Assembly (NCBI RefSeq): GCF_018326265.1
Contig: NZ_AP023360.1
Span: forward strand, 6,171,501 to 6,235,500
DNA: 64,000 nucleotides
Direction: 5' to 3'
Source: Catellatospora sp. IY07-71
GTDB lineage: Bacteria > Actinomycetota > Actinomycetes > Mycobacteriales > Micromonosporaceae
Notes under the pieces: model-generated
Database searches by the model: none
Seen by the model: the letters and a program-made list of their open reading frames with translations, nothing else
Told to the model about the DNA's origin: nothing
Position numbers and translations under genes: made by a program
Shown here: positions 24,988 to 46,771 of the stretch, in pieces
Position numbering within the stretch: the first letter of the stretch is position 1
Layout of the letters: each line of letters begins with the position of its first letter

Positions 24988-25725
24988 ATGGAGTTTCAGG
25001 TGCTGGGCCCGGTGCAGGCGTCGGTCGGGAATCGGCGGATCGAACTCGGCGACCGCAAGCAGCGGCTGGTCCTCGCCGTCCTGCTGCTGGAACCCAATCA
25101 GCTCGTCCCGCTCGCGCGGCTGGTGGATCTCCTGTGGCGGGAGAGCCCGCCGACGACCGCCCGGCGCGTCGTCCAGTCGCACGTCAGCCGGCTGCGCTCC
25201 GCGCTGGCCGCCGGGAGCGGCGACGTCACGATGGTCCGCCGGGGCATGGGCTACGCGGTCGAGTGCGACCCTGAGCGGATCGACGCGTACCGGTTCCGGT
25301 CGCTGCTCGACCAGGCCCGCAACAGTGACGACGCGCACGACAGGGTGCGTCTGCTGCGTCAGGCGCTGGGGCTGTGGCGCGGGCCGGCCCTGGCCGACGC
25401 CGCCACCCACGAGGTACGCGACGAGCTGTGCCGTGGCCTGGACGAGGCGAGGATGGCCGCCGTCGAGGAGCGCTTCGACGCGGAGCTGGAGCTCGGCCGC
25501 GACAGCCAGCTCGTCGACGAGCTGACCGACCTCGCGGCCCGTTACCCCCACCGGCAGAAGCTCACCTTCCACCTGATGCTCGCGCTGTACCGGGCCGGCC
25601 GGTCCGGTGAGGCCCTGCGCGTCTACGCCTCCACCCACCGCCGGCTGGATGCCGAACTCGGGCTGCAGCCGAGCGCCGGGCTCCGGCAGCTGCAGATCGC
25701 CATCCTGCGCGGAGATCCCGCCTGA
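24988..25725 (+). CDS. SARP-like (AfsR/DnrI-type) transcriptional activator, 245 aa
   Basis: Probable pathway-specific activator of the neighbouring cluster. Residues 1-95 form an OmpR-type winged helix (MEFQVLGPVQASVGNRRIEL, then QSHVSRLRSALAA). Residues 100-240 form the bacterial transcriptional activator domain (RFRSLLDQARN, RQALGLWRGPALADAATHEV, HLMLALYRAGRSGEALRVYA). The length matches small SARPs with no ATPase part. ATG 24988 gives the usual SARP N-terminus; an in-frame ATG at 24952 is possible. It is transcribed towards the methyltransferase/P450 pair, which is convergent, and lies just inside the IS701 element. Confidence 0.9.
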   Translation: MEFQVLGPVQASVGNRRIELGDRKQRLVLAVLLLEPNQLVPLARLVDLLWRESPPTTARRVVQSHVSRLRSALAAGSGDVTMVRRGMGYAVECDPERIDAYRFRSLLDQARNSDDAHDRVRLLRQALGLWRGPALADAATHEVRDELCRGLDEARMAAVEERFDAELELGRDSQLVDELTDLAARYPHRQKLTFHLMLALYRAGRSGEALRVYASTHRRLDAELGLQPSAGLRQLQIAILRGDPA

Positions 25726-25734
25726 GGCCGGACC

Positions 25735-26553
25735 TCAGCCGGGGAGCGTACCCACGACGAACCCGCCGGATCCTTGACCGCGCCCGTAGCCGGCCGCGAG
25801 GTCCGCCGCTTCGTGTGTGGTGATCTGCCAGCCGTGCCGCGCGAGCCCGCCCGGGGCGTCGTCCAGACCGCCCTTCCACAGGGCGGTGTACTGCGCGATG
25901 ACGGGCAACCCGGCCGTCTGCGGCACCTGTCCCCCGGCCTCGAACGATGCCCGGCTGCCGGGTGCGGAGTGCTCGTGCAGCACCGCCAGCAGGTGCGCCG
26001 CCTCCGCGGCCGACAGGTAGATCAGCAGCCCTTCGAGCAGCCAGGCGGTCGGCTCGGCCGGTCGCATACCCGCGGCCAGCAGCGGGCTCGCCCAATCCCC
26101 GCGCAGGTCCGCCGCAACGGCCGCGTGGCCGCACCGGGCGACCGCACCCCGCCGCCGCAGCACGTCGCGTTTGAAGTCCAGGACGTCGGCGGTGTCCACC
26201 TCGAACACCCGCACGCCGGGCGGCCACCCGAGCCGGTAGGCCCGCGTGTCCAGCCCGGCGCCGAGCAGCACGACCTGCCGTACTCCCGCCATGGCCGCCG
26301 CGAGCAGGTAGTCGTCGAAGAACCGGGTCCGCACGACGGCCTGGTTCCAGAAACCGGCCGCCCTGCCCGACACGCCGCCGACGAACGCGGCCGCGCCCCG
26401 GCTCTCCCCGCCGAACACGTCCCGGGCCGCGGCCAGGAACGCGGCCGCGTAAGGGTCGTCGAAGAGCCGGTCCCGGCGGCGGCTCTCCATCGCCCGGACC
26501 ATCGCCGCGCCGAGCGCGGTCCGGCCGACCCCTTCGGGAACGGCGCTCACCAC
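25735..26553 (-). CDS. SAM-dependent methyltransferase, LCM/TIGR00027-like, 272 aa
   Basis: Class I methyltransferase of the leucine carboxyl methyltransferase-like group often found in natural-product clusters. The SAM-binding motif is QVVLLGAGLDTRAYRLGWPP, followed by the acidic strand VRVFEVDTADVLDFKRDVL. The family hallmark WLLEGLLIYLS appears near residue 170. The N-terminus (MVRAMESRRRDRLFDDPYAA) is also typical. The start is one of two adjacent GTG codons (26553 or 26550); the second overlaps the P450 stop as GTGA, so the two are coupled. The likely role is O- or carboxyl-methylation of a small product; the target is unknown. Confidence 0.87.
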   Translation of the reverse strand: MVSAVPEGVGRTALGAAMVRAMESRRRDRLFDDPYAAAFLAAARDVFGGESRGAAAFVGGVSGRAAGFWNQAVVRTRFFDDYLLAAAMAGVRQVVLLGAGLDTRAYRLGWPPGVRVFEVDTADVLDFKRDVLRRRGAVARCGHAAVAADLRGDWASPLLAAGMRPAEPTAWLLEGLLIYLSAAEAAHLLAVLHEHSAPGSRASFEAGGQVPQTAGLPVIAQYTALWKGGLDDAPGGLARHGWQITTHEAADLAAGYGRGQGSGGFVVGTLPG

Positions 26554-27740
26554 GTGACCGGCAGCGCGACGAGCCCGCCGGTGATCTGGTCGTGGTGCGA
26601 CCGCAGCTCGGCGACCTCGGCCGCCAGGCGCATCGCCGGGAAGCGCGGGATCAGCTGGGCGAACAGCGCCTGCATCTCCAGCCTGGCCAGCGGTGCGCCG
26701 GGGCAGTAGTGCCGGCCGTGCCCGAAGGTCAGGTGCGCGGCATCGGACCGGTCGATGTCGAACCGGTACGCGTCGGCGTACACCGTCCGGTCGTGGTTGG
26801 CCGCGCCGGTGTCGAGCAGGACCAGTTCTCCGGGGCGGACCCGCGTGCCGGCGATGTCGAGTTCGGAGCGGGCGTAGGTGGGGATGCCGTTGCCGCCGCC
26901 GGTGTTCACGCCGACGTTGCCCACGCGCAGCGCCTCCTCGACGGCGGCGGTGAGCTTGTCCGGGTCGGCCGCGACCGCATCCCGCTGATCGGGGTTGGTG
27001 AGCAGGTGCAGCGCCATGTACCCGATCGCGACGACCGTCGTGTGGTGGCCCGTGAACATCAGCGACGCGCCGATGTGGCCGATGACGTTGTCGTCGACCC
27101 CGAACGGAGCCTCCCGCAGGCGCATGAGCAGGCCGCCGGGTTCGGCCCGGCCGCGCGCCGCCAGCTTGCCCAGGTACGCCACGAGCGCGGCCAGGCCCGC
27201 CGCGGACCGCTGCTCGTCACGGGCGTCAGCGATCGCCTCGGTGAACCTGCGGCACTTGTCGAGGTCCTTCTCAGGCACGCCGAGCAGACGGCAGATGACC
27301 ATCGTCGGCAGCGGGACCGCCACGAGGTCGACGAAGTCGGCGGGCGGCCCCGCCGCCTCCAGCTCGTCCAGCAGGCGGGTCACCAGCTCGTCGAGCGACG
27401 CGCGCAGCTCGCGCAGCCGGGCCGGGGAGACGATCGTGTGCAGCACCTCCCGGAACCAGGCCCGGTCGGCGTCCTCGGACAGGTAGTTCTCCCGTGGCCG
27501 TCCCCCGAACAGCGCCGAGGCGGTCAGGCGCGGGGCCCGGCTCGGCCGCGGGTGGGCACGTGCCAGGCGGTCGCCCGAGTACAGAGCCTTGACCTGCTCG
27601 TATCCGGTCACCAGCCAGGCCTCGTCGCCCGTCAGCGTGCGTACTCGATGAACAGGCCCCTGTTCCTGCAGCGCTTGCAGCACCGGGGCGGGTTCGAGCG
27701 GATGCTTCTGCTCGAACGGCATGGACGGCAGGTCGGTCAT
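26547..27740 (-). CDS. Cytochrome P450, 397 aa
   Basis: Soluble bacterial class I P450 that needs ferredoxin partners encoded elsewhere. The I-helix oxygen site reads LMFTGHHTTVVAIGYM, the K-helix ExxR is VEEALRVGN, and the haem loop is FGHGRHYCPGAPLARLEM with the proximal cysteine. Size and N-terminus (MTDLPSMPFEQKHPLEPAPV) are normal. ATG 27740 has GGAAGGAA just upstream. It is coupled to the methyltransferase. The tnpB element lies directly upstream, between it and the main biosynthetic operon on the same strand. It may once have been the downstream end of that operon. Confidence 0.95.
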   Translation of the reverse strand: MTDLPSMPFEQKHPLEPAPVLQALQEQGPVHRVRTLTGDEAWLVTGYEQVKALYSGDRLARAHPRPSRAPRLTASALFGGRPRENYLSEDADRAWFREVLHTIVSPARLRELRASLDELVTRLLDELEAAGPPADFVDLVAVPLPTMVICRLLGVPEKDLDKCRRFTEAIADARDEQRSAAGLAALVAYLGKLAARGRAEPGGLLMRLREAPFGVDDNVIGHIGASLMFTGHHTTVVAIGYMALHLLTNPDQRDAVAADPDKLTAAVEEALRVGNVGVNTGGGNGIPTYARSELDIAGTRVRPGELVLLDTGAANHDRTVYADAYRFDIDRSDAAHLTFGHGRHYCPGAPLARLEMQALFAQLIPRFPAMRLAAEVAELRSHHDQITGGLVALPVTW

Positions 27741-27895
27741 CAGATTCCTTCCGTGGATACTGCGGCCTTCAGGCCGGGGAGGAAACGGAACTCCTGCGGA
27801 GCGGGGCAGGCAAAGCCGATCCGCCGCCGAGGCGGACCGGCGTCCGTCCGTACGTCAGTACGAAACCCAGCGGCCGTCCTGTTAGGATCCGTGGC

Positions 27896-29101
27896 GTGGC
27901 CAGGACGGTGAAGCGGGCGTTCAAGTTCCGCTTCTACCCCAGCGACGTGCAGGCCGAGCAGCTGTCGCGGACATTCGGGTGCGTCCGGCTGGTCTACAAC
28001 ATGGCCCTGCAGGCCCGCACCGAGGCGTGGACCCAGCGGCAGGAGCGGATCGGCTACCACGCGACCTCGGCCCTGCTCACCGGATGGAAGAAGACCGCCG
28101 ACCTGGCGTTTCTCAACGACGTCTCCTGCGTGCCACTGCAGCAGGCGCTGCGGCACCTGCAGACCGCTTACGTCAACTTCTGGGCCAAACGCGCCAGACA
28201 CCCGCACTTCAAGTCCAGGAAGCGCTCGCGCCGCTCGGCCGAGTACACCGCCAGCGCGTTCCGCTGGCGCGACGGCAGGCTGACCCTGGCCAAGATGACC
28301 GAACCCCTCGACATCGTGTGGTCGCGGCCGCTGCCGCAGGGCTGCACGCCCTCGACGGCGACCGTGTCGCAGGATGCGGCCGGGCGCTGGTTCGTGTCCC
28401 TGCTCTGCGACGACGTCATCGCCCAAACCCCCGCCGCCGGCACGGTCGGGATCGACGCTGGCCTCGACAGCCTGCTCACCCTGTCCACCGGCGAGAAGAT
28501 CACCAACCCCCGGCATGAGCACGCCGACCGGCAGCGGCTGGCCGGCGCGCAACGCGACCTGGCCCGCAAGCAGAAAGGCTCGGCCAACCAGGCCAAGGCC
28601 CGGATCAACCTCGCCCGCATCCACGCCCGCATCGCCGACCGCAGGCGCGATCACCTGCACAAACTGACCACTCGGCTCGTTCGTGAGAACCAAACGATCG
28701 TGATCGAGGACCTGGCCGTAAGCAACATGGTCCGCAACCACCGGCTGGCCCGCGCGATCAGCGACGCGGCCTGGCGGCAGTTTCGCACTCTGCTGGAGTA
28801 CAAGACCGTCTGGCACGGCCGGGACCTGATCGTCGTGGACCGCTGGCTCCCCTCGACCAGACTCTGCTCGGCCTGCGGCGCAATCACACAGAAGATGTCG
28901 CTGCACGTACGGGAATGGACGTGCCCGTGCGGCAGCCGCCACGACCGCGACGTCAACGCGGCACGCAACATCCTGGCCGCCGGACTGGCGGTGACAGCCT
29001 GCGGAGACGATGTAAGACCTCAACGAGGAACCTCTCGGACGGGGCAGTCGTCGGCGAAACAGGAACACCCGAGGGCGACCAAGGGAATCCCCATCCTTTA
29101 G
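27896..29101 (+). CDS. tnpB: TnpB RNA-guided nuclease (IS605 OrfB), 401 aa
   Basis: Ancestor-type relative of Cas12. The N-terminal helix-turn-helix-like part (KRAFKFRFYPSDVQAEQLSR) and the wedge/REC regions precede a RuvC-like nuclease. Its acidic residues are D in GTVGIDAGLDSLLTLST, E in TIVIEDLAVSNMVRNH and D in HDRDVNAARNILAAG. A zinc knuckle (LCSACG...CPCG) lies between the last two. All catalytic positions are present, so the nuclease is probably functional. The GTG start at 27896 gives MARTVKRAF. The 3' end of the gene overlaps the element end from which the guide RNA would come. Confidence 0.95.
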   Translation: MARTVKRAFKFRFYPSDVQAEQLSRTFGCVRLVYNMALQARTEAWTQRQERIGYHATSALLTGWKKTADLAFLNDVSCVPLQQALRHLQTAYVNFWAKRARHPHFKSRKRSRRSAEYTASAFRWRDGRLTLAKMTEPLDIVWSRPLPQGCTPSTATVSQDAAGRWFVSLLCDDVIAQTPAAGTVGIDAGLDSLLTLSTGEKITNPRHEHADRQRLAGAQRDLARKQKGSANQAKARINLARIHARIADRRRDHLHKLTTRLVRENQTIVIEDLAVSNMVRNHRLARAISDAAWRQFRTLLEYKTVWHGRDLIVVDRWLPSTRLCSACGAITQKMSLHVREWTCPCGSRHDRDVNAARNILAAGLAVTACGDDVRPQRGTSRTGQSSAKQEHPRATKGIPIL

Positions 29102-29118
29102 GGCGGGGAGGATGTCAA
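28990..29118 (+). ncRNA. Candidate omega (guide) RNA of tnpB
   Basis: In characterised TnpB systems the guide RNA spans the 3' end of tnpB and the right end of the element, and its guide is the flanking host DNA. Here the terminal hairpin region 29085-29118 fits, and the guide would start near 29119 (GCGGGGCCTTCCTC...). The 5' limit given is a guess. Confidence 0.4.
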
Positions 29119-29131
29119 CGCGGGGCCTTCC

Positions 29132-30361
29132 TCATCGGCCGGAGAACTTGGCAGCGTCCAGGGCGTCGCCGGGCGGCAGGAGCCGGCCGAGCTGCTCCAG
29201 CAGGACCGCCTGCCGCTCGCGCAGCCGGTCGCGCTCGGTCTCGTCGTCCAGCAGCTCGGTCATCGCCTGCAGCACCCGGCGCCGCTCGAATACGCCGACG
29301 CTGCGGAAGGTGTCCGGATACGGGTTGCCCGACAGCACCGGGGTGAGGAACTCGTGCCAGCCCCACGGGTACACCCGGAACGGGTAGGCCAGGGCCAGCT
29401 CGGGCGCCGCCTCGGCCAGCCAGGCGGGTGCCGAGCCGCTGGCGATCAGCCGCCGGATGTCAAGGATCTTGTGGTTCTGCAGCACGAGGCTCGGCACACC
29501 GGCGAGCACCGCCTGGGTCAGCGTCACCGACACCGCGTTGGCGCTGACGTAGAGGTCGGCGGCGGTCAGCTGGGCGTGGAACTCCACCGGCGTCAGCGTC
29601 GGCACCTGCCGGTACTCGATCTGCGGGGCGACGGGGAACTCCCACGGGTGCGGGCCGACGTGGACCACCCGCAGCGGCCGGCCGAGCGCGGCCAGGTGGC
29701 TGTGGATGATCTGCGGCATGGACCGCATCAGCTGCCCCATGCTGGGCGAGCGGACCACGTTGACGTACTCCCACCGGGAGTTGGTGAGAAACACCGTCGG
29801 CGTCCCGGACCGGCGGGGCGGGCGCATCGGCGTCGTCCCGCCGCACACCATCGGGGTCACGATGACGCCGGGTTCGGCGGGTGCGGGGCGGTTCAGCGGG
29901 CTGTTGCGGATCAGCAGGTCGCAGCTGTCGAGCAGGCGCGGGAAGTGGGTGCGGTGCCCGCCGTAGAAGTCGACGACGTACTGAGCGGCCGGGTAGTCGT
30001 ACTGGTCGAAGCTGGCCAGGGCGACGTCGTAGCGGTCGCGCAGCAGGCTCATGCTCAGCCCCGACCACGCCGTCGAGTAGTCCAGCGTGAAGCAGTCGGC
30101 CGCGACGAGCATGTCCGGGCGGAAATCGGCCACGAGGGTGTCGAACGCGGCCCGGTTCCGGCCCGGGTCCTGGCTGGTCAGCGGGTGGACGTCGAGCCCG
30201 AGCCCGCGTACGTAGGGCGCGACCGCGGCCATGGTCACGAACAGGACCTTGAACCGGTCCGGCGGCAGTTGCCGGGCGAAGTCGGCGGCGATGCTCACGT
30301 CGCCGTTGGACAGGTGGCCGAGCCCGAGGAACAGCAGGCGCCGGGGGTTCATCGCGCTCAC
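29132..30361 (-). CDS. DUF6365-like, glycosyltransferase-fold protein (copy A), 409 aa
   Basis: One of three paralogues in this operon. Each resembles the DUF6365 family as I recall it and looks like a GT-B-type fold. The N-terminal Rossmann half starts RRLLFLGLGHLSNGDVSIAA and carries DMLVAADCFTLDYSTAW. The C-terminal half carries VFLTNSRWEYV, RVVHVGPHPWEFPVAPQIEY, then LYVSANAVSVTLTQAVLAGV and FRVYPWGWHEFLTPVLSGNP. The late segment resembles the nucleotide-sugar half of MurG/UDP-GT enzymes. GTG 30361 overlaps the upstream stop (GTGA); ATG 30352 is an alternative. It is the last gene of the main operon, 13 bp before the tnpB element border. The reaction is unknown. Confidence 0.75.
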   Translation of the reverse strand: MSAMNPRRLLFLGLGHLSNGDVSIAADFARQLPPDRFKVLFVTMAAVAPYVRGLGLDVHPLTSQDPGRNRAAFDTLVADFRPDMLVAADCFTLDYSTAWSGLSMSLLRDRYDVALASFDQYDYPAAQYVVDFYGGHRTHFPRLLDSCDLLIRNSPLNRPAPAEPGVIVTPMVCGGTTPMRPPRRSGTPTVFLTNSRWEYVNVVRSPSMGQLMRSMPQIIHSHLAALGRPLRVVHVGPHPWEFPVAPQIEYRQVPTLTPVEFHAQLTAADLYVSANAVSVTLTQAVLAGVPSLVLQNHKILDIRRLIASGSAPAWLAEAAPELALAYPFRVYPWGWHEFLTPVLSGNPYPDTFRSVGVFERRRVLQAMTELLDDETERDRLRERQAVLLEQLGRLLPPGDALDAAKFSGR

Positions 30362-31041
30362 CACACCGACTGCCGGCTCAGCGCGGCCACGACCGCGGGC
30401 TGCTCGCCGTAGAGGACCGCCATCACTTCCCCGATCGCCTGCCGTTCGGGGCCGACGGCACCCGCGTGCATGGTGGCCAGCGGTTCGCACAGGACCGCGC
30501 CCAGCGCCGGCAGTCCCACCGGCGTGCGCGGGCACGCTGCCAGCACGTCCAGCAGGGGTGGCCGTCCGTCGGCGGGCGGCGTGCCCGCGAGATGGTCGAC
30601 GACGGCGGCCAGCGCGTGGGTGCTGACGAAGTAGGCCTGCGCCGGAAGGCCGCCCTGGCGCGCCAGGAGCAGCTCCAGGTCGGCCTGGGCCAGGCTCAGC
30701 TCCCCCGAGGCCTGCACCGAGTACGCGCCGTAGCTGCTCGGGATCAGGGCACGCAGCCGGGCCCGGCTGTAACGGGCCAGCCAGTTGTCCGGGTCCAGCC
30801 GCAGCGCCTGCCCGAGGGCGTCGATGGTGTCGGTGAACCGGGCGTGTGCCTCGAACTCCACGCCGAGGCTGGGCAGCGCGGCCATCAGCGCGAAGGCGTA
30901 CCGGGCGGCGGCGCCGGGGTCGGCCGGGGCGGCGCGGCGGGCGTCGGCCAGGCGGGCCAGCAGCTTGGGCGCCCAGCCCAGCTTGCCGGCCGCGCTGGCC
31001 ACTCCGTACAGCTCGTCGTCGGCGCGGGTGATCAGGTGCAC
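30358..31041 (-). CDS. TPR-like helical protein (copy B of pair), 227 aa
   Basis: An all-helical protein related to the gene at 35806. Shared positions include LITRADDELYGVASAAGKLG versus VTRADEELFSTALMAARLG, and DNWLARYSRARLRALIP versus GHWLARFLRIHTRTLLP. The latter segment looks like a TPR helix pair. It starts at GTG 31041, four bases after the radical SAM stop, and ends in a GTGA overlap with a DUF6365-like gene. The same gene order occurs at the other copy. It is probably an adaptor or scaffold for its radical SAM partner; no catalytic motif is seen. Confidence 0.6.
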   Translation of the reverse strand: MHLITRADDELYGVASAAGKLGWAPKLLARLADARRAAPADPGAAARYAFALMAALPSLGVEFEAHARFTDTIDALGQALRLDPDNWLARYSRARLRALIPSSYGAYSVQASGELSLAQADLELLLARQGGLPAQAYFVSTHALAAVVDHLAGTPPADGRPPLLDVLAACPRTPVGLPALGAVLCEPLATMHAGAVGPERQAIGEVMAVLYGEQPAVVAALSRQSVW

Positions 31042-31045
31042 GGTG

Positions 31046-31954
31046 TCACGCCGTCGCCGTCGGGGTGACCGGCTGGAACTCGTCCCAGCCGACGAACTCG
31101 GCGTACTCCTTGTAGACACCGCCGCAGGAGCCGTTGTGGGCGCAGCCGCCGCACCGCTCGTCCTTGACCCGGGCGTTGCTGTCCATGTAGTTCTCGTAGT
31201 CCTCGAACACGAACTTGCGGTACAGCATCTTGAACTGGTTCTGCTTCCAGTCGATCATGTACTGCTCGTAGCCGGGGATGGCGCAGTACGGGAAGCCCTC
31301 CAGGGTGACCATCTTGCCGCGCCGCACCGCACGGTCGACGGCCTCGAAGACGTAGGGCTGGATCTCGTCGTAGCGCGGGGTGACGTCCCAGAAGTTGCGC
31401 AGCGCCGTGCCGGAGGTGTGCAGCGCGGACAGGTTCACGTGATCGGCGCCGAGGTCCAGGCACAGGTCGACGATGTCGGGCACCTCGGTGAAGTTGTCCT
31501 TGCACACCACCGAGTTGGTGCGGACCAGCGCGCCGAGTTCCTTCACGTTGCGGATGCCCGTGACGGCCTGCTGGAACGAGCCGAGCGCCTTGGCGATGCG
31601 GTCCTGGGTCAGCGCGCGGGCCCCGTGCAGGGACACGATGAACAGGCTGACGTTCTTGCTCACCACCGTCTTGGCGTACTCCATCCGGGCCAGCTTGCGG
31701 CCGTTGGTCTGCAGCAGCACGGTCGGGTAGCCCAGCCCCTGGATCTCGTCGAGGATCTCCAGGAAGTCCTTGCGGATGGTGGCCTCGCCGCCGTGGATGT
31801 TGACGGCCTCGAATCCCTTGTCCGCGTTCTCCTGCAGGAATCGCGAGACCCGCTTGCGGGAGATGGAGTCGTCCTTGACGAACGGGGAGTCGACGATGCA
31901 GAAGTTGCACTTGCTGTTGCAGATGTCGGTCAGGTGCACGCTCAGCGCCTTCAC
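31046..31954 (-). CDS. Radical SAM protein with four-Cys C-terminal cluster site (copy B), 302 aa
   Basis: The N-terminal motif C12-x3-C16-x2-C19 (LTDICNSKCNFCIVDS) binds the SAM-cleaving 4Fe-4S cluster. HGGEATIRKDF supplies the SAM amino-group site. C-terminal cysteines in FPYCAIPGYE and DERCGGCAHNGSCGGVYKEY suggest a second cluster of SPASM/twitch type. About three quarters of the first 100 residues match the paralogue at 36483. The GTG start overlaps the upstream stop (GTGA). Such enzymes with auxiliary clusters often modify peptides (C-C, C-S or C-O links, epimers), but some act on sugars or small molecules. Confidence 0.85.
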   Translation of the reverse strand: MKALSVHLTDICNSKCNFCIVDSPFVKDDSISRKRVSRFLQENADKGFEAVNIHGGEATIRKDFLEILDEIQGLGYPTVLLQTNGRKLARMEYAKTVVSKNVSLFIVSLHGARALTQDRIAKALGSFQQAVTGIRNVKELGALVRTNSVVCKDNFTEVPDIVDLCLDLGADHVNLSALHTSGTALRNFWDVTPRYDEIQPYVFEAVDRAVRRGKMVTLEGFPYCAIPGYEQYMIDWKQNQFKMLYRKFVFEDYENYMDSNARVKDERCGGCAHNGSCGGVYKEYAEFVGWDEFQPVTPTATA

Positions 31955-37409: not shown

Positions 37410-37438
37410 CGCCGCGGCCTCCTAGCCTTCGTCGCCGA

Positions 37439-37747
37439 TCAGTCGTCGAGGTCTTCGTCGTCGTAGATCTCGTATCCCTGCTGGACCATCGCGGCGTCCT
37501 CGGGCGTGTAGACCGCGGAGTCGACGGCGAAGAACTCCTCCAGGTTCTCCGGCGTCAGCTTGGCCAGGTCCTCCTCGTCGAGGCTGCGCAGCAGCAGCAG
37601 CTGGACCTCGCTGAGGGCGTAGCCGGCCAGCGCGGCGTCGGGATCGTCGAGCAGCAGGCGGCCGAACTCCGGGTCGGCGACGGCCCGTTCCAGGACGTCC
37701 TTGACCTGGCTCGGCTCAGCCTGGCTCGCGGTGGTTTCGGCAGTCAC
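37439..37747 (-). CDS. RiPP precursor-like peptide (Franean1_4349-type leader), 102 aa
   Basis: A small acidic protein that resembles the Franean1_4349 family of putative RiPP precursors. Residues 14-62 read as the leader (VKDVLERAVADPEFGRLLLD, DPDAALAGYALSEVQLLLLR, SLDEEDLAKL). The tail from about residue 70 (EEFFAVDSAVYTPEDAAMVQ then QGYEIYDDEDLDD) is the candidate core. It has no cysteine, and Y80, Y92 and Y95 stand out with acidic neighbours. GTG 37747 has AGGAG seven bases upstream. It is isolated by 28 and 29 bp gaps between the B12-type and radical SAM genes, with its own strong ribosome site, as expected of a highly translated substrate. The cleavage site is not obvious. Confidence 0.7.
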   Translation of the reverse strand: MTAETTASQAEPSQVKDVLERAVADPEFGRLLLDDPDAALAGYALSEVQLLLLRSLDEEDLAKLTPENLEEFFAVDSAVYTPEDAAMVQQGYEIYDDEDLDD

Positions 37748-37775
37748 GTGTGCACTCCTGTCCGGTGGTGGATCG

Positions 37776-39548: not shown

Positions 39549-40675
39549 CCTTCTGAGGGCTGCAGCGAGGCGGTGATCAGGTCAGCGGCGGTCGCCAGCG
39601 GGGCCATCGCCCGCAGTTCGCCGGCGACCTCCTGGGCGGCCTGGCGGTAGCGGGGCTCCTCGACGACCGCGCGTACGGCGTCGCGCAGCTCCGTGGCGGT
39701 CACCGTGTCGGCGTCCAGCGCGATGCCCAGGCCCAGCTCGGCGCAGCGCGTGGCGATGTAGGGCTGGTCGGCGAAGATCGGGACGAGGACCAGCGGCAGC
39801 CCCCGGACCAGCGCCCGGCAGACCGTGCCCCAGCCGGCGTGCGTGACGACGGCCGAGGCCCGGTCGAACAGCTCGTCGTGGGGGGTGCGCCCGAGCAGGC
39901 GTACGTTGTCCGGGATCGGCCCCGTCTGCGCCAGGCCCGCGCCGCCGTGGGTGACCAGGCCGTCAACGGGCAGTCCGGCCAGCGCCTGGACGGCGGCGGC
40001 CACGTACCGGTCCTGGACCAGCGCCCGCACGCCGAGGTTGATCGGCGCGTTCGTGCTGGCGCTGACGACCACGACCGGCCGGCCACCGGGCCGGGTCCGT
40101 GGCGGGGGCACCTCGGCGAAGGGGCCGACCAGGGCGACCTCGTCCGGCAGCCGGTGGGCCCCGGCGAAGCGCGCGGTCGTCGGGATCAGGTGCAGCTGCG
40201 GCGAGGTGCGCCCGAGCAGGCTCACGTCGTCGTCGGGCAGGCCGAGCGCGGCCAGCACCCGGTGCGGGGCGAAGCTGTCGACGGCGTGCGGGGGCAGAAA
40301 GGTGCGGTAGGAGTCCAGCGCCGGGACGGGGCTGAACGACAGCGACACCCACGGCAGGTCTATCCGCTGCGCGGCCAGCGCGCCGCCCGCGGCCATCACG
40401 TCGGCCACGATCAGCTCCGCGCCGCAGTCGTACGCCAGATCCACGATGTCGCGGACCATCGCCTCGAGATCGCCGAGGAAGATGTGCCGGAACAGCGTGG
40501 CGCTGTCGGCGGCGTACAGGTGCGGGGGAATGGGCGCGTCGGGGCACCAGCGGCTCGCGGTCTCCTCGCTGAACGTGGTGACCTCGTGCCCGGCCGCGCG
40601 CAGCTGCCCGGCGAGCGCCGACATCGGCTCGGTGTGGCCGGGCGGGTGGAAGGGGACGAGCAGGATACTGGTCAC
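39545..40675 (-). CDS. Glycosyltransferase, UDP-GT/MGT-like (GT-B), 376 aa
   Basis: A macrolide-GT-like enzyme that transfers sugar from a nucleotide donor. The N-terminal acceptor half starts SILLVPFHPPGHTEPMSALA, with an early histidine as in the family. The C-terminal donor site is RTPHDELFDRASAVVTHAGW then GTVCRALVRGLPLVLVPIFA-DQP, close to the GT1 signature. Length is normal. GTG 40675 overlaps the nucleotidyltransferase stop and the end overlaps the B12-type radical SAM start (both GTGA). It probably uses the donor made by its upstream neighbour to decorate the cluster product. Confidence 0.88.
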   Translation of the reverse strand: MTSILLVPFHPPGHTEPMSALAGQLRAAGHEVTTFSEETASRWCPDAPIPPHLYAADSATLFRHIFLGDLEAMVRDIVDLAYDCGAELIVADVMAAGGALAAQRIDLPWVSLSFSPVPALDSYRTFLPPHAVDSFAPHRVLAALGLPDDDVSLLGRTSPQLHLIPTTARFAGAHRLPDEVALVGPFAEVPPPRTRPGGRPVVVVSASTNAPINLGVRALVQDRYVAAAVQALAGLPVDGLVTHGGAGLAQTGPIPDNVRLLGRTPHDELFDRASAVVTHAGWGTVCRALVRGLPLVLVPIFADQPYIATRCAELGLGIALDADTVTATELRDAVRAVVEEPRYRQAAQEVAGELRAMAPLATAADLITASLQPSEG

Positions 40676-41487
40676 GGCTGCCGCCGGGCCAGTACGCCGC
40701 CGGGGGCTTCGAGGGCTTCGCGGGCCCGCAGGACACCGGCCGGGGTGCCGATGTCGTGGAACTCGCCGGCGGGGAAGGTCAGCGCGTGTACGCGCAACCC
40801 CGCGGTCATGGCGGCGACGAAGATGTCGCTGAGCAGGAGCTCCGGACCGGGCGGCGCATCGGCCACGCACGCGTGCAGCAGCTCGGTGAAGACCGGCGAC
40901 CAGGCGGCGATGCCCCACGTGTTGTCGGCCGGCGGATGCTCGGGCTTGTCCACGATGGCCAGCACCCGGTATGAGCCGGGCTCGACGACGACCGGCGCGA
41001 GCGCCTGCGGCGTGGCGGTCGGATAGACCCCGAGGCTGAGGTCCGCGCCGGTGCCGTCGTGGAAGTCCAGCAGCCTGGCGAAGCCGTCGTCCGGGGAGAT
41101 GATCGTGTCCGGCATGCCCATGCACACCGTCCGGCCGGCCAGGAACGGCGTGGCCAGGTCGAGCGCGTGGGGCAGGCCGCGCGCCACCTCCTGGCACACG
41201 TACGCCAGGTCCATGCCCAGGTAGCTGCCGGAGCCGAGGTAGCGCAGCAGTTCGGCCTTGGCGGGTGACAGCACGACGAAGGCCCGCCCGACGCCGCCGC
41301 CGCGCATCGCGGTCAGGACGTGTTCGATGGCCGCCTTCGGCAGCACCCGGCCGCCGACGTCGTGGTAGCCGACCTGGATGAGCTCCTTGGGCGCGCGGTA
41401 CGGCGCGAGGCGCGTCCCGGCGCCTGCCGCAGGCACCACACCGAACCGACCCACCCGAAACACCCCCACGTGGTAGCGCTTCCACAT
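40672..41487 (-). CDS. Sugar-1-phosphate nucleotidyltransferase (GalU/RmlA-like), 271 aa
   Basis: It makes an activated sugar (UDP- or dTDP-hexose) for the glycosyltransferases. The catalytic loop GVVPAAGAGTRLAPYRAPKE and the later VCMGMPDTIISPDDGFARLL are typical of the family. No sugar dehydratase follows, so the sugar may be used unmodified. Two starts are possible. ATG 41487 lacks a ribosome site and would put an operator-like palindrome inside the gene. GTG 41454 (VGRFGVVPAAG) has a GGGGG eight bases upstream and leaves the palindrome in the leader. It is the first gene of the minus-strand operon. Confidence 0.85.
   Translation of the reverse strand: MWKRYHVGVFRVGRFGVVPAAGAGTRLAPYRAPKELIQVGYHDVGGRVLPKAAIEHVLTAMRGGGVGRAFVVLSPAKAELLRYLGSGSYLGMDLAYVCQEVARGLPHALDLATPFLAGRTVCMGMPDTIISPDDGFARLLDFHDGTGADLSLGVYPTATPQALAPVVVEPGSYRVLAIVDKPEHPPADNTWGIAAWSPVFTELLHACVADAPPGPELLLSDIFVAAMTAGLRVHALTFPAGEFHDIGTPAGVLRAREALEAPGGVLARRQP
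41471..41484. promoter_or_regulatory. Near-perfect LacI/CcpA-like palindrome at the head of the operon
   Basis: TGGTAGCGCTTCCA pairs with itself at 12 of 14 positions and is very close to the LacI-family operator pattern TGGAAGCGCTTCCA. It lies just upstream of the GTG 41454 start, or at codons 2-6 if ATG 41487 is used. It could put the main operon under a sugar-responsive regulator. This is inferred from one site. Confidence 0.45.
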
Positions 41488-41591: not shown

Positions 41592-42431
41592 ATGTTGGAG
41601 CCCCGGGTGTCGGTCGTGCTGCCGCTCTTCGGCGACCACCGCGCCACACAGGTGCTGCCGCGGGTCTGTCGTGCCTGGCTCGCCCAGGACGTCCCCTGCG
41701 AGATCGTGATCGGCGTCGGCCCGGACACGGTGGTGCCCGAGCTGCCCGACGACCGCGTCCGGCTGGTCTACGCCGACCAGGGACCGTCCGCGGCCGGCCC
41801 GCTGCGCAACCTCGCGGCCGCGGCTGCCCGCGGATCCACGTTCTACCTCGGCGACGCCGACATCGTGCCGCTCGGCACCGACTACCTCACCAGGGCGCTG
41901 GAGCTGGGCCGGGACCGGGTGGTGATCCAGCCCTGGCTCTACCGCCTGGTCGACAGGTCCGGCACCCGCGACGACCTCGTCCTGGAGAACCCCCGCTTCG
42001 GCCGCGTCTGCCACGTCCAGGCAGGCCCCGACGGCCGCCTGCAGCCCGTCGGCCCGGAGCGGTTCCTCTGGCAGGGCCGCGACTGCATGATCGTCGAACC
42101 CCCGGCGGGGGTCGGCTGGAACGTCCGGGAGGGGTTGCCCTGGTTCCCGCCGCCCTACCACTGGGGCGGCTTCCTCGTCGAACGCAAGCTGTTCGACGAC
42201 GTCGGCGGCTACTGCACCCGCTACTCCGGCTGGGGATGCGAGGACGACGACCTGATCGCCAAGCTGGAGGGCCGCATCGAGGTGCTGCGCGCCTGGCGCG
42301 CCGCGCGCGGGCTGGCCTGCCTGCACTTCGAACACTCGCGTACGCACACCGTGACCCTGCCCGCCAACCAGGAGATCCTGGCCCGACGGCTGGACCGCGG
42401 GGTCGACGCGATGATCGCAGAGGACCGGTAG
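41592..42431 (+). CDS. Family 2 glycosyltransferase (GT-A), 279 aa
   Basis: An inverting GT2-type enzyme. The N-terminal nucleotide-binding strand is VSVVLPLFGDHRATQVLPRV. The metal-binding DxD is TFYLGDADIVPLGTDY near residue 92, and the acceptor-side WGCEDDDLIAKLEGR near residue 216 is the Glyco_transf_7C motif. It starts the plus-strand operon and ends directly against the ABC ATPase gene (TAG-ATG). It probably adds a sugar during or before export of the product. ATG 41592 was chosen over a GTG at 41607 only by length. Confidence 0.85.
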   Translation: MLEPRVSVVLPLFGDHRATQVLPRVCRAWLAQDVPCEIVIGVGPDTVVPELPDDRVRLVYADQGPSAAGPLRNLAAAAARGSTFYLGDADIVPLGTDYLTRALELGRDRVVIQPWLYRLVDRSGTRDDLVLENPRFGRVCHVQAGPDGRLQPVGPERFLWQGRDCMIVEPPAGVGWNVREGLPWFPPPYHWGGFLVERKLFDDVGGYCTRYSGWGCEDDDLIAKLEGRIEVLRAWRAARGLACLHFEHSRTHTVTLPANQEILARRLDRGVDAMIAEDR

Positions 42432-43340
42432 ATGGACGCGCGAGCCGCGATCGCGGTCACCGACCTGAGGAAGACCTACGGCGCCACGACCGCCCTCGAC
42501 GGGGTCTCGTTCGAGGTCGCCGAGGGCGAGTTCTTCGGGCTGCTCGGCCCCAACGGCGCGGGCAAGACCACCACCCTGGAGATCGTGGAAGGGCTGCGGC
42601 GGCCCGACTCCGGCCAGGCCCTGATGTTCGGTGCGCCGTCCTGGCCGCCCAACCCGGACCTGATGCGGCGCATCGGCGTACAGTCGCAGACGCCGGCGTT
42701 CTTCGAGCGCCTGACGGCCGCCGAGCAGATCCACGCGTTCGCGAAGCTCTACCGGGTCCCCGCCGTGCGCGCCGACGAGATGCTGGCCGCCGTCGGCCTG
42801 TCCGACAAGGCCCGGACCCGGGTCGAGCAGCTGTCCGGCGGCCAGGCCCAGCGCCTGGCCATCGCCTGTGCGCTCGTCCACGATCCGCAGCTGGTGTTCC
42901 TCGACGAGCCCACCGCGGGACTCGACCCCCAGGCCCGGCGCAACCTCTGGGATCTGCTCCGCGACATCAACGCCGCTGGCCGGACCGTCGTGCTGACCAC
43001 GCACTACATGGACGAGGCGGAGGCGCTCTGCCACCGGGTCGCCATCATCGACCACGGGCGCATCCTCGAATGCGGACCACCCGAGACGCTGATCCAGAAG
43101 GCCGACGCCGTCACCCGCGTCATCGCGCGGGCGGCCCTGGTCGACGCCGGTGAACTGCGCCGGCGGTTCCCCGAGGCGACCGTCACCGAGGACGACGCCC
43201 GGATCGTCATCGCCAGCCCTGATCCCGCGCCGGTGCTCGCCGAGCTGGCAGCCCGCGGCGCGCTGCGCGACCTGGTGGTCAAGGGCGCCACCCTGGAGGA
43301 CGCCTACCTGACGCTGACCGGGCGGGAGTATCGCGCATGA
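42432..43340 (+). CDS. ABC transporter ATP-binding protein (drug/peptide export type), 302 aa
   Basis: ATPase of an ABC-2 exporter. Walker A is GLLGPNGAGKTTTLEIVEGL, the signature is VEQLSGGQAQRLAIACALVH, Walker B is LVFLDEPTAGLDPQ and the switch is VVLTTHYMDEAEALCHRVAI. The C-terminal regulatory extension (about 220-302) is typical of DrrA/CcmA-like ATPases. The start touches the glycosyltransferase stop; the end overlaps the permease by ATGA. It probably exports the cluster product and may confer self-resistance. Confidence 0.93.
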   Translation: MDARAAIAVTDLRKTYGATTALDGVSFEVAEGEFFGLLGPNGAGKTTTLEIVEGLRRPDSGQALMFGAPSWPPNPDLMRRIGVQSQTPAFFERLTAAEQIHAFAKLYRVPAVRADEMLAAVGLSDKARTRVEQLSGGQAQRLAIACALVHDPQLVFLDEPTAGLDPQARRNLWDLLRDINAAGRTVVLTTHYMDEAEALCHRVAIIDHGRILECGPPETLIQKADAVTRVIARAALVDAGELRRRFPEATVTEDDARIVIASPDPAPVLAELAARGALRDLVVKGATLEDAYLTLTGREYRA

Positions 43341-44401
43341 ACGGCCTCGGAACCCTGTCGCAGATCCTGCTGCGCGGCTACCTGCGCGACAAGGCGTCGC
43401 TCTTCTTCACCCTGGCCTTCCCGCTGCTGTTCCTGGTCCTGCTCGGCGGGCTGTTCGGCGGCGCCGACACAGCGCCACAGGTGAAGGTCGCCGTCGTCGG
43501 ACCGGTCGACGTCCTGGACGCGCTGACCGACGGGCAGCGGGCCCAGATCGGCCAGGTGCTCGCCATCACCCGGACCACCGACCTGGCCGCGGCGCTGGAC
43601 CAGGTGCGCTCCGGTGACCGGACGGCCGCCATCGTCCAGCACGGCACGCAGGTCCAGGTGCACTACTCGGCCGCCGACCCGTCCTCGGCCGCCACCGTGC
43701 GCAGCGTCGTGGAGTCGCTGGTGCAGGGGGCCAACCTGGCCGCCACGGGACAGCCGCCCAGGTTCACCGTCTCGGTCACCACCGTCCAGGACGCGTCCGT
43801 CAAGCAGATCCAGTACCTCACGCCCGGCATCCTCGGGTGGGCCGTCGCCACCGGCGCCACCTTCGGCGCCGCGTCGACCCTGGTCGTCTGGCGCCAGCGC
43901 AGGCTCACCCAGCGGCTGGCGCTCAGCCCCGTCGGCGTGCCGGCCGTGATCGGCGCGCGCATCCTCGTCAGCCTCGGCCTGGCACTGGCGCAGACGCTGC
44001 TGTTCCTCGGCATCGCGGCCGCCTTCTTCGATCTGCAGCTGACCGGGGCGTGGTGGCTGGCGATCCCGCTCGTCCTCGCCTCGACCCTGGCGTTCCTGTC
44101 GGTCGGGCTGCTCGCCGGGGCGACCACGAGATCCGTCGAAGCCGGCAACGCCGTCTGCAACATCGTCGTCATCCCGATGGCGTTCCTGTCCGGGTCGTTC
44201 GTACCGCTGAGCTTCGCGCCCGACTGGCTGCAGGCCGCCTCGCTGGTGCTGCCCCTGCGGCAGTTCAACGAGGGCGTGCTCGACGTGCTCAGCCGCGGCG
44301 GGGGCGTCGGCGACGTCGTGGTGCCCCTCGCCGTGCTGCTCGGCTTCGCCGCCGTGCTCACCACGGTCGCCGTCCGCCTGATCCGCCGCGAAGCCGACTG
44401 A
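43337..44401 (+). CDS. ABC-2 type transporter permease, 354 aa
   Basis: Membrane partner of the preceding ATPase. A first helix (KASLFFTLAFPLLFLVLLGG) is followed by an extracytoplasmic domain of about 150 residues. A block of five helices follows (GVPAVIGARILVSLGLALAQ, AIPLVLASTLAFLSVGLLAG, AVLLGFAAVLTTVAVRLIRR). This is the usual DrrB/YhgE-like layout. It is coupled to the ATPase by ATGA. Confidence 0.92.
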   Translation: MNGLGTLSQILLRGYLRDKASLFFTLAFPLLFLVLLGGLFGGADTAPQVKVAVVGPVDVLDALTDGQRAQIGQVLAITRTTDLAAALDQVRSGDRTAAIVQHGTQVQVHYSAADPSSAATVRSVVESLVQGANLAATGQPPRFTVSVTTVQDASVKQIQYLTPGILGWAVATGATFGAASTLVVWRQRRLTQRLALSPVGVPAVIGARILVSLGLALAQTLLFLGIAAAFFDLQLTGAWWLAIPLVLASTLAFLSVGLLAGATTRSVEAGNAVCNIVVIPMAFLSGSFVPLSFAPDWLQAASLVLPLRQFNEGVLDVLSRGGGVGDVVVPLAVLLGFAAVLTTVAVRLIRREAD

Positions 44402-44416
44402 GAGGGCACCGGACAC

Positions 44417-45271
44417 GTGAGCCGCCGAGGCGTGTACTTCGTCGCCAACGACGCCGTCCTGGACCAGGCCATCGCCTTCCTGAACAGCTTCCGCGCGCAC
44501 AATCCGACGATCGCGCTGTGCCTCATCCCCTACGACGACGACGTCTCGGGCCTCGTCCGGCTGGCCGGCGAGTACGACTTCGGGATCTGGTCCGACGACG
44601 ACACCCTGGCCTGGTGCGACGGCGTGAGCCGGCGATTCCACGACCGCACCGTCGGCCAGTACCGGAAGCTGGCGATGTGGGAGGGCCCCTTCGACGAGTT
44701 CGTCTACATCGACACCGACACCGTCGTGCTGACCGACATCGGCTTCGTGTTCGCCCATCTGGCGGACTTCGGCTTCGTCGCCTCGCACTCCAACCTCCCC
44801 CAGATCCGCAAGTGGGTGTGGAAGGACTCGATCTACGACGCGCAGGTCCTCACCGGTCGGCAGATCGCGTACGCGGCCAACACCGGCTTCCTGGTCTCCC
44901 GCAGGCAGTGTCTGCCGCGTACGGCGGTCGACGAGCGGCTGCCCGCCGCGGTCGCGCTGGCCGAGCACATGGAGCTGTACTGCTGTGAGCAGCCGCTGCT
45001 GAACTACCTCATCGTGACCTCGGGCATCCGCCACGGCAGCCTGATGACGATCGCGGCCAAGACGCGCTCGTGGCACATTCCCATGGAGCGCTGGGCGGGC
45101 GATCCCTCCTACGTGGTCGAGGACGGCCGCGTGGTGGTGCCGGACACGCCGCATCTGCTGATGCACTGGGCAGGCGAGTGGGCGCGGGCCCGGGACACCG
45201 GCGCGCAGATCCCCTACTTCGCACTGTGGAACCACTACCGCCGACTTCGCGACCCGCAGGAGACCCGATGA
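44417..45271 (+). CDS. GT-A-fold glycosyltransferase-like protein, 284 aa
   Basis: It resembles GT8-type enzymes. The start VYFVANDAVLDQAIAFLNSF is the nucleotide-binding strand, the DxD motif is DEFVYIDTDTVVLTDIGFVF near residue 102, and YAANTGFLVSRRQC matches the AGVLL-type acceptor segment of the family. The C-terminal HLLMHWAGEWARARDTGAQI keeps a late histidine and tryptophan. The GTG start lies 15 bases after the permease; the end overlaps the phosphorylase gene as ATGA. It could add a second sugar. The family name is not certain. Confidence 0.7.
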   Translation: MSRRGVYFVANDAVLDQAIAFLNSFRAHNPTIALCLIPYDDDVSGLVRLAGEYDFGIWSDDDTLAWCDGVSRRFHDRTVGQYRKLAMWEGPFDEFVYIDTDTVVLTDIGFVFAHLADFGFVASHSNLPQIRKWVWKDSIYDAQVLTGRQIAYAANTGFLVSRRQCLPRTAVDERLPAAVALAEHMELYCCEQPLLNYLIVTSGIRHGSLMTIAAKTRSWHIPMERWAGDPSYVVEDGRVVVPDTPHLLMHWAGEWARARDTGAQIPYFALWNHYRRLRDPQETR

Positions 45272-46071
45272 CCGCCGCAGCCGACATCGCCGTGATCGGC
45301 GGATCCGGCCTCTACAGCCTCCTCGACGGGGGCTACGAGGTGCGACCGGACACCCCGTACGGCGCCGCATCCGACGCGATCACCGTCGGGGAGGTGGCCG
45401 GACGTCGGGTCGCGTTCCTGCCCCGGCACGGCCGGGACCACCGCCACCCGCCCCACCGCATCCCCTACCGCGCCAACCTGTGGGCGCTGCGCGCGCTCGG
45501 CGTACGGCAGATCCTCGCCCCCTGTGCCGTCGGCGGCCTCACCGCCGGCCTCGGCCCGGGCTCGTTCGTGCTACCCGACCAGCTCATCGACCGCACCAGC
45601 GGTCGCGAACGCACCTACGTCGACACCGGAGCGGCGCACGTCAACTTCGCCGACCCGTACTGCCCCGCCGGGCGTCAGAAGGTCCGCGACACCGCCGCCG
45701 CCACCGGCATGGACCTCACCGGCACCGGCACCATGGTCGTCATCGACGGGCCGCGCTTCTCCACCCGCGCCGAATCGCGCTGGTACGCCGCCTGCGGCGG
45801 CACCGTGATCAACATGACCGGCGCGCCCGAGGCGGCCCTGGCCCGCGAACTCGCCCTGTGCTACACGACGATCGCGCTCGTCACCGACCTCGATGCGGGC
45901 GTCGAAGGGGACCACGGCGTCACCCTGGACGAGGTGTTCCGCGTGTTCAAGGACAACACCGAACGCATGCGGGCGCTGCTGCTGACCACCATCGCGAACC
46001 TGCCCCACCAGCGTGACTGCCCCTGCCCGGCCGCACTGGACGGCCTGCAGATGCCCTTCGAGCTGCCCTGA
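45268..46071 (+). CDS. mtnP: 5'-Methylthioadenosine phosphorylase-like enzyme (PNP/MTAP family), 267 aa
   Basis: It phosphorolyses MTA, and in some organisms 5'-deoxyadenosine, to adenine and the sugar phosphate. The phosphate loop (IAVIGGSGLYSLLDGG), the RHGRDHRHPPHRIPYRANLW block, the GPRFSTRAESRWYAACGGTV segment and the NMTGAPEAALARELALCY active-site stretch all match the MTAP family. The length is normal. GGAG precedes the ATG, which overlaps the previous stop as ATGA. In an operon beside three radical SAM enzymes, all of which release 5'-deoxyadenosine or related products, it may serve as a clean-up enzyme. That role is my inference. Confidence 0.85.
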   Translation: MTAAADIAVIGGSGLYSLLDGGYEVRPDTPYGAASDAITVGEVAGRRVAFLPRHGRDHRHPPHRIPYRANLWALRALGVRQILAPCAVGGLTAGLGPGSFVLPDQLIDRTSGRERTYVDTGAAHVNFADPYCPAGRQKVRDTAAATGMDLTGTGTMVVIDGPRFSTRAESRWYAACGGTVINMTGAPEAALARELALCYTTIALVTDLDAGVEGDHGVTLDEVFRVFKDNTERMRALLLTTIANLPHQRDCPCPAALDGLQMPFELP

Positions 46072-46080
46072 CGGTCGGTG

Positions 46081-46119
46081 CCGGCGGGGCCGCCCGGTGG
46101 TGCCGGACAGCCCCGCCGG
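46081..46119. terminator. Hairpin between convergent genes
   Basis: CCGGCGGGGC (46081-46090) and GCCCCGCCGG (46110-46119) are perfect 10-bp complements around a 19-base loop, between the ends of the phosphorylase gene and the convergent SnoaL-like gene. It could terminate both. Confidence 0.65.
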
Positions 46120-46126
46120 GCGGTCG

Positions 46127-46771
46127 TCAGTGCGCGACCGGGCAGCCGTTGGTGAGCTTGCCGAGGAACTGGTTCGGGTCGTAGTAGTGCTCGACCTCCA
46201 GCAGCTTCAGGTCGTCGCTGACCTTCGCAACGCTGATCCCGAACATCTCGATCGTCTTACCGTCGGGCTGGTGGCCGTGGTACTCGCCCTCGAACGCGCC
46301 CCAGTGCCGCCACTTGAACGTGACCACCGGGGGCGGGCTGATGACCTCCAGGACCTCCCAGTAGAACCCGTTCGGGAACGCCTTGTGGAAGATGTGGTGC
46401 GAGGAGTCGAACGACTCCTGGCCGCTGCGGTAGAACGGGCTGTCCCCGATGAGGATGTTGTAGCTGCCGATGTCGGCGATGTCCTGCGCGCTGGCCCACG
46501 GACCGCCGTTGACGTTGGTGCGGAAGTGCTCGGTCACCATCGACACCCAGGTCGCCGGGTCCTTCTTGTACGAGACCTCCATCTCGAAGACCTGGACGAT
46601 GCTCTCGACGATCGCCTCGAGCGAGTCGGGCGCGTGCTGGGTGGTGCGCTGGCCCGGCATGACGGTGTGCGAGAGGTGGTAGTCGGGGGTGGTGCCGTCA
46701 CGCCAGGCCGACGTCTCGGCGGCCTCGATGACAGCGGTGCGGCCCTGGAGCCACAGGGGGGTTTCAGACAC
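46127..46771 (-). CDS. SnoaL/NTF2-like protein, 214 aa
   Basis: Small NTF2-like fold protein. An N-terminal part of about 60 residues (LQGRTAVIEAAETSAWRDGT) precedes the NTF2 core (FRTNVNGGPWASAQDIADIG, then VVTFKWRHWGAFEGEYHG and KTIEMFGISVAKVSDDLKLL). Members include polyketide cyclases, hydrolases and binding proteins; no catalytic Asp/His pair is certain here. GTG 46771 has GGAG seven bases upstream. It converges on the cluster operon and may mark its right border. Confidence 0.7.
   Translation of the reverse strand: MSETPLWLQGRTAVIEAAETSAWRDGTTPDYHLSHTVMPGQRTTQHAPDSLEAIVESIVQVFEMEVSYKKDPATWVSMVTEHFRTNVNGGPWASAQDIADIGSYNILIGDSPFYRSGQESFDSSHHIFHKAFPNGFYWEVLEVISPPPVVTFKWRHWGAFEGEYHGHQPDGKTIEMFGISVAKVSDDLKLLEVEHYYDPNQFLGKLTNGCPVAH

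Follow-up and report, generated by a model that had tools for sequence, protein, structure and literature searches.

A candidate glycosylated, radical SAM-modified peptide cluster with an NHLP-type precursor in Catellatospora sp. IY07-71

The closest described relatives of the peptide treated here are PflA and PosA, NHLP-type precursors of Pseudomonas (PosA from strain Os17), for which the accessible part of a preprint reports a mass change on co-expression with enzymes of their clusters (PMC12636437). We take PosA to be the same peptide as Os1348, whose deletion lowered antibiotic activity according to excerpts of an earlier paper (PMC7726476). The locus studied here lies in a stretch of 64,000 nucleotides of Catellatospora sp. 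IY07-71 (the window; positions 6171501-6235500 of a single-contig genome of 8.6 Mb), which has a G+C content of 71.5%. It encodes a peptide of 102 residues (37439..37747, minus strand) that matches the namesake family of Os1348, NF038399, at 45.7 bits, above the cut-off of 40. The peptide gene sits between the gene of a B12-type radical S-adenosylmethionine (SAM) enzyme and the first of two genes for smaller radical SAM enzymes with an expected auxiliary cluster. A glycosylated, radical SAM-modified peptide of the ribosomally synthesized and post-translationally modified (RiPP) type, with an NHLP-type leader, is the explanation that fits the data best and we regard it as probable.

Polytheonamide, a proteusin, is made with B12-type methyltransferases. 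The window shares the NHLP-clan leader with systems of this type, in which radical SAM enzymes act on one precursor (PMC8326336, seen in excerpt). Proteusin leaders are often 80-90 residues long in the available part of PMC10858898, whereas that of the window peptide is about 71, and glycosyltransferases are present in the window. Family scans with Pfam and NCBIfam covered the genes between 24904 and 46792. Although the leader clan is the same, the locus is not filed as a proteusin because the small radical SAM enzymes differ from proteusin epimerases in an extra set of cysteines and the family hits shown include no RiPP recognition element (RRE). In the Pseudomonas clusters, the accompanying genes encode an acetyltransferase, a HEXXH protein and either a SagB-type dehydrogenase or an MNIO-fused nitroreductase (PMC7726476, PMC12636437, both in part) but the window has three radical SAM enzymes and glycosyltransferases instead. 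The portion of the preprint at hand reports no protease gene near the pfl cluster, as is the case here (PMC12636437). Mycofactocin is likewise a tyrosine-bearing peptide that is modified by a radical SAM enzyme and accompanied by a glycosyltransferase, as is proposed for the window, but the window differs in having three radical SAM enzymes, an exporter and a SARP-family regulator. The creatininase-family, FMN dehydrogenase and binding-protein genes in the mycofactocin table of PMC3023750 (an excerpt) were not found among the window genes scanned.

The window peptide is strongly acidic (27 Asp/Glu against 5 Lys/Arg, pI 4.05) and has no cysteine. The original prediction had described an acidic peptide with a Franean1_4349-like leader; its acidity stands but the match to PF14407 (Frankia_peptide/Franean1_4349) reaches 29.0 bits against a cut-off of 48, and the nearest family is that of Os1348. 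NF038399 was found to match all six aligned peptides, including that of the window, at E<=0.001, the bit score being given for the first member only. In the PDB, the peptide profile matched an 85-residue chain named nitrile hydratase alpha chain (6lk7, E 4.7e-4), while the NHLP leader chimera 8tb1 was matched at E 0.42. We infer from its length and name that the 6lk7 chain is Os1348; the available passages of PMC7726476 do not carry the code 6LK7. None of the six peptides contains cysteine and therefore they lack the core cysteines of sactipeptides and lanthipeptides.

Residues of about 14-71 form the Os1348/NHLP-type leader region and residues 72-96 a putative core with the motif D-x-A-V-Y-T-P. 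Nine residues of this core (F73, D76, A78, V79, Y80, T81, P82, Y92 and D96) were found to be invariant in all six peptides. Identity to the window peptide in the core is 24/25 for G142, 21/25 for G239, 13/25 for G350 and 10/25 for G351, and in the leader (residues 15-71) it is 48/57, 51/57, 41/57 and 30/57 respectively. The putative core is more constant than the leader only in the comparison with G142 and, by eye in the alignment, with Catellatospora bangladeshensis (G001). Against G142, residues 72-96 were observed to be under purifying selection, with a synonymous difference (pS) of 0.64 compared to a nonsynonymous difference (pN) of 0.017, and the first 14 and last six residues of the peptide are the most variable. 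The number of tyrosines showed no clear pattern with the number of radical SAM genes across the peptides.

Twelve genes form a tight operon on the minus strand, from about 41439 down to 29132. Their order is sugar-nucleotide pyrophosphorylase, EryCIII-type glycosyltransferase, B12-type radical SAM enzyme, peptide, radical SAM 1, partner 1, DUF6365 a, DUF6365 b, P5, radical SAM 2, partner 2 and DUF6365 c. Start codons were trimmed for several genes because a number of long open reading frames in the mechanical list begin too early, and with these starts six adjacent gene pairs overlap by four bases.

Among 354 genomes of the same family, the small radical SAM enzyme was found in six (E<=1e-30) and DUF6365 in the same six. 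The peptide gene adjoins a small radical SAM gene in every one of them, so that a precursor gene beside modifying enzymes is conserved together with them, as is expected of a RiPP. Even samples of the order (397 genomes) and of the phylum (396 genomes), from which the other five carriers are absent, returned the Catellatospora genome itself alone. The complete 12-gene core was observed in one order in four of the six clusters (the window, G001, G142 and G239), and the search for syntenic clusters advised in the original prediction finds the core recurring in other genera. This synteny together with the purifying selection on the peptide makes the locus more than a chance arrangement. Counting only genes within the clusters, G350 holds the peptide, one small radical SAM enzyme, two partners, two DUF6365 proteins, P5, the glycosyltransferase and the pyrophosphorylase. 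The B12-type enzyme has no match in the G350 genome at E<=1e-10; a distant radical SAM protein on another contig matches it at 25%. The G351 cluster holds the peptide, the B12-type enzyme, two small radical SAM enzymes, two partners, two DUF6365 proteins, a shortened P5 and a sugar nucleotidyltransferase, and the EryCIII-type glycosyltransferase was not matched there.

When the genome collection was scanned with two short peptide patterns, 168 pattern matches were obtained and led to five loci: in C. bangladeshensis, Micromonospora sonchi, Virgisporangium aurantiacum, V. ochraceum and, weakly, a Rubrobacter metagenome-assembled genome. The first four are G001, G239, G350 and G351, and the scan was not exhaustive as it missed G142. 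The Rubrobacter locus was rejected as a relative, since its match spans just 34 residues and the contig has no match to any other protein of the window. The stretch concerned (L041, 3315-5009) is a weak Frankia_peptide-like segment, below cut-off, inside an open reading frame call of 564 residues.

As had been predicted, one B12-type radical SAM gene (37776..39548, with its start at 39539 or 39548) and two auxiliary-cluster radical SAM genes (radical SAM 1, 36483..37409; radical SAM 2, 31046..31954) are present on the minus strand, with PF04055 scores of 57.8, 58.6 and 62.7 bits respectively. In the small enzymes, C12, C16 and C19 of the CX3CX2C motif and four further cysteines (224, 268, 271 and 277) are invariant in all 11 aligned rows, and the extra four are what would be expected of a single auxiliary cluster. 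The best of their NCBIfam models (the best 25 of 52 matches were considered) are HxsC4 and HxsC, enzymes of His-Xaa-Ser peptide systems. Radical SAM 1 scores 137 bits against HxsC4 (NF038332, cut-off 500) and 92.9 bits against HxsC (cut-off 267.9); for radical SAM 2 the scores are 122.8 and 95.2 bits, again below cut-off. Both small enzymes score 65 bits with the mycofactocin model TIGR03962, below its cut-off of 265. The B12-type enzyme carries its CX3CX2C motif at residues 305-312, its B12-binding Pfam match of 18.2 bits is below the cut-off of 32.1, and the PhpK and ApyD models are also below cut-off. A plasmid-borne relative of this enzyme was rejected, as the plasmid collection gave no match at E<=1e-30.

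Each of the 11 small radical SAM genes in the six clusters is directly followed by a partner gene. In the window these are partner 1 (35806..36483) and partner 2 (30358..31041), both on the minus strand, and the arrangement of radical SAM 2 with partner 2 is kept in G001, G142 and G239. Similarity is weak (28%, E 1e-7) for the second partner of G351. While both predicted partner genes are present, their TPR label is weak: the family has no Pfam match and the best PDB match of its profile is a designed TPR protein at E 0.0086. Trees of the radical SAM, partner and DUF6365 families suggest that a radical SAM-partner-DUF6365 block has been duplicated, and this stays a suggestion because the place of the single G350 radical SAM enzyme is supported at only 0.62.

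The three predicted DUF6365 genes of the window all pass the Pfam cut-off of PF19892 and are located on the minus strand: DUF6365 a (34562..35809, 242 bits), DUF6365 b (33363..34565, 170 bits) and DUF6365 c (29132..30364, with its start at 30352, 30361 or 30364, 194 bits). The alignments of DUF6365, P5 and the partners were made without G142, which was included in those of the glycosyltransferase, the radical SAM enzymes and the peptide. With hhalign, the DUF6365 profile reached 47% (E 2e-4) against an EryCIII-type glycosyltransferase profile built from five sequences of the clusters. It reached 92.4% (E 5.1e-7), across 341 columns (columns 1-408), once six DUF6365 sequences and one glycosyltransferase (from contig C54 of G350, next to a pair of DUF6365 genes) had been added and the alignment method changed. 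As controls, seven other families, namely those at hand, reached at most 0.6% with DUF6365, and the reversed DUF6365 profile reached at most 0.5% with all eight. At the level of sequence profiles, DUF6365 resembles GT-B glycosyltransferases, and glycosylation of the peptide is more likely because of this. The neighbouring glycosyltransferase (39545..40675, minus strand; PF06722, 80 bits; CalG1, E 7.7e-26) is a plain member of the CalG/EryCIII family, with which DUF6365 can be aligned almost from end to end. DUF6365 lacks the HAGWGT stretch of this glycosyltransferase and carries an invariant N-x-x-S close to that position. The predicted nucleotidyltransferase is the sugar-nucleotide pyrophosphorylase-like gene at 40672..41439 (minus strand; PF00483, 51.7 bits).

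P5 (31951..33366, minus strand) has a homologue in all five relatives, and thus in all six clusters, as well as in a module of the more distant genome G691; the G351 copy lacks roughly its final third. It has no match in Pfam, in NCBIfam or, by profile search, among PDB sequences. Further DUF6365 genes were observed in G350. Contig C53 has one together with two ketosynthases, FAD oxygenases, a dTDP-sugar epimerase and a nucleotidyltransferase, and contig C54 has two together with an O-methyltransferase, an aromatic-ring hydroxylase and a glycosyltransferase-like gene. These contigs have not been joined and are possibly the two parts of one glycosylated type II polyketide cluster. A radical SAM-like gene is also carried by C53 (loci L030-L032 on C53/C54). 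That one DUF6365 copy sits on a contig with ketosynthase and deoxysugar genes counts towards the glycosylated reading.

The RiPP part of the original prediction of a glycosylated RiPP is well supported because the precursor belongs to the NHLP clan, a peptide is present in all six radical SAM-bearing genomes and its gene is embedded among three radical SAM genes; modification and glycosylation of the peptide are suggested by the gene content. The substrates, sites, order of steps, chemistry, cleavage and product are inferred throughout what follows. The 102-residue peptide would be made with its NHLP/Os1348-type leader (about 14-71) and cysteine-free core (about 72-96). The two small radical SAM enzymes with four auxiliary cysteines, each with its own small partner, would modify the region of D-x-A-V-Y-T-P, probably by carbon-centred cross-linking or oxidation, and the B12-type enzyme, where present, would add a methyl or similar group. 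Sugars would then be attached to the modified core by the EryCIII-type glycosyltransferase and by the three DUF6365 proteins acting as glycosyltransferases; as for the site, Tyr80 or Thr81 is a guess. The leader would be removed by a protease encoded elsewhere, the ABC pair would export the product and the SARP would switch the cluster on. An antibiotic-type role is presumed for the product.

Several observations weigh against a modified peptide, and many of them would suit a saccharide or aminoglycoside-like antibiotic pathway in which the radical SAM enzymes act on sugars, DUF6365 and the other glycosyltransferases build an oligosaccharide, with the peptide in an accessory or chaperone role. 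The best PDB match of the small radical SAM enzymes is the cytosylglucuronate decarboxylase BlsE (E 9e-18), which acts on a nucleoside sugar, followed by PqqE. The two PDB matches of the B12-type enzyme (6wte and 6fd2) are a tryptophan C2-methyltransferase and the apramycin oxidoreductase AprD4. The clusters hold several glycosyltransferases, with a DegT-type aminotransferase in G350 and a class III aminotransferase in G351. In three of the relatives (G239, G350 and G351), it is the leader and not residues 72-96 that is better conserved. In addition, the DUF6365 resemblance is as low as 47% with the smaller glycosyltransferase set, the PDB sequence search with the DUF6365 profile returned no glycosyltransferase, and the core genes show neither a peptidase nor an RRE in the family hits given. 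As to loci without a peptide gene, which the original prediction had set against itself, the six radical SAM-bearing genomes all have the peptide, but G691, from another family of the phylum, has a DUF6365-P5-ABC ATPase-permease module with no peptide, partner or radical SAM match on its contig. This module (L056, 168-4942) lies beside ruvCAB on a contig of 50% G+C in a genome of 2.2 Mb. Genome-wide, the radical SAM profile gave two partial matches (E 6e-16 and 2.5e-13, at E<=1e-8) and the peptide profile no match at E<=10, an empty answer which alone shows little; of the 11 genomes from its family, G691 alone has DUF6365. With the DUF6365 gene starting 168 bases from the end of the contig, genes may be missing. 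Alternatively, the module may represent an older unit for export and glycosylation that later gained the peptide part. On the other side, the HxsC-type models, although below cut-off, come from peptide systems; next to the cytosylglucuronate decarboxylase match this means that the sequence alone does not separate peptide from sugar substrates. The NHLP-type leader, the invariance of D76 and A78-P82 in all six peptides and the presence of one sugar-nucleotide gene with no deoxysugar pathway among the genes scanned (24904-46792) speak against a saccharide product, which we consider unlikely.

The peptide might instead serve as a carrier or scaffold whose acidic C-terminus is the site or the source of a small molecule that is then released, with the peptide being reused or just one of its residues ending up in the product. 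The strong constraint on both leader and core between close genera, the acidic tail and the lack of a leader protease among the hits mentioned above are consistent with this, but the invariant stretch is internal while the last six residues vary, and the family hits given for the genes of the cluster include neither a LanB-like PEARL nor a LysX-like ligase; we give such a carrier a slim chance. A cofactor-like RiPP such as mycofactocin or pyrroloquinoline quinone, that is, a glycosylated tyrosine-derived redox group used inside the cell, would explain why Tyr80 is invariant and why PqqE and mycofactocin models are among the small radical SAM matches, all below cut-off, and mycofactocin is itself oligoglycosylated (PMC7491314, in excerpt). 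It is nevertheless highly improbable, given the rarity of the cluster (6/354 in the family), its SARP and ABC exporter genes, its three radical SAM enzymes and the absence of a dehydrogenase gene among the cluster genes scanned. The glycosylated, radical SAM-modified NHLP-type RiPP is thus the reading that we retain.

The genes flanking the operon include the predicted exporter, P450, methyltransferase and SARP, all of which are present. On the plus strand, a GT2/GT7-like gene is followed by an ABC ATPase, a permease and an Npun_R2821-type gene. The DrrA-like ATPase (42432..43340; PF00005) has a match near the core in all five relatives, and the ABC-2 permease (43337..44401; PF12698) completes the exporter pair (42432-44401). 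The exporter looks replaceable, judging from the permeases of G142, G239 and G351, which share only 23-27% identity with that of the window. The SARP-family regulator with its BTAD domain (24904..25725, plus strand; PF03704, 122 bits) was matched in all five relatives, in G351 at about 10 kb from the core, and its true start may be further in, near 24988. Of the three glycosyltransferase-like genes that had been predicted, the EryCIII-type gene and the accessory GT2/GT7-like gene (41592..42431, plus strand) hold, the latter just above cut-off (PF02709, 28.6 bits against 23). The third (44417..45271, plus strand) matches just NF045582, at 128 bits and below the cut-off of 250, and is better described as an accessory Npun_R2821-type protein. 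Both accessory genes were matched in G001 and G350 only.

The P450 (26547..27740, minus strand; PF00067) and the LCM-type methyltransferase (25735..26553, minus strand; PF04072, TIGR00027) had been counted in the cluster set, but they are lineage-specific and not part of the core. Among the fetched stretches of relatives the methyltransferase was matched in G001 alone; the P450 has its only in-cluster match there, its 32% match in G350 being on contig C53, away from the cluster. An activator of the glycosyltransferase was rejected as a role for the P450 because its heme-cysteine motif, FGHGRHYCPG, is intact. An IS605-type TnpB insertion (27741..29113, gene 27896-29101 on the plus strand; PF01385, PF07282), itself outside the cluster, separates the P450 from the core operon, and the same place is empty in G001. 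Its left end meets the P450 start codon and therefore the insertion may cut the P450 and the methyltransferase off from transcription of the operon.

At the other end, methylthioadenosine (MTA) phosphorylase (45271..46068) borders the cluster. This gene and the following SnoaL-like gene were placed within the boundary by the original prediction but neither is core, the first being the only match in the genome and the second having a match in G001 only. A dedicated radical SAM helper is not favoured for the phosphorylase because it is the sole genome copy. Its homologue in G239 is located about 10 kb from the cluster permease gene, and those of G142, G350 and G351 are elsewhere; the gene is near the cluster in two genera.

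In the literature searched, which left most subscription journals outside, no paper was found under the names DUF6365 or Franean1_4349 and no description of such a cluster, as judged by titles and the starts of abstracts. The gene combination, the invariant cysteine-free motif and the probable role of DUF6365 are likely to be new. We propose more tentatively that the locus may represent a new RiPP class, in which D-x-A-V-Y-T-P of a cysteine-free NHLP precursor would be modified by block-duplicated radical SAM-partner pairs, with the partners replacing the RRE in leader binding, and would then be decorated by DUF6365 as an unnamed glycosyltransferase family. If this is true, the clusters would make up a family of glycosylated, radical-modified peptides outside the cysteine-based types and DUF6365 would receive its first function. 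Furthermore, clusters with and without the B12-type enzyme, and with one or two radical SAM-partner units, would offer a natural comparison from which the task of each enzyme could be read in the product masses.

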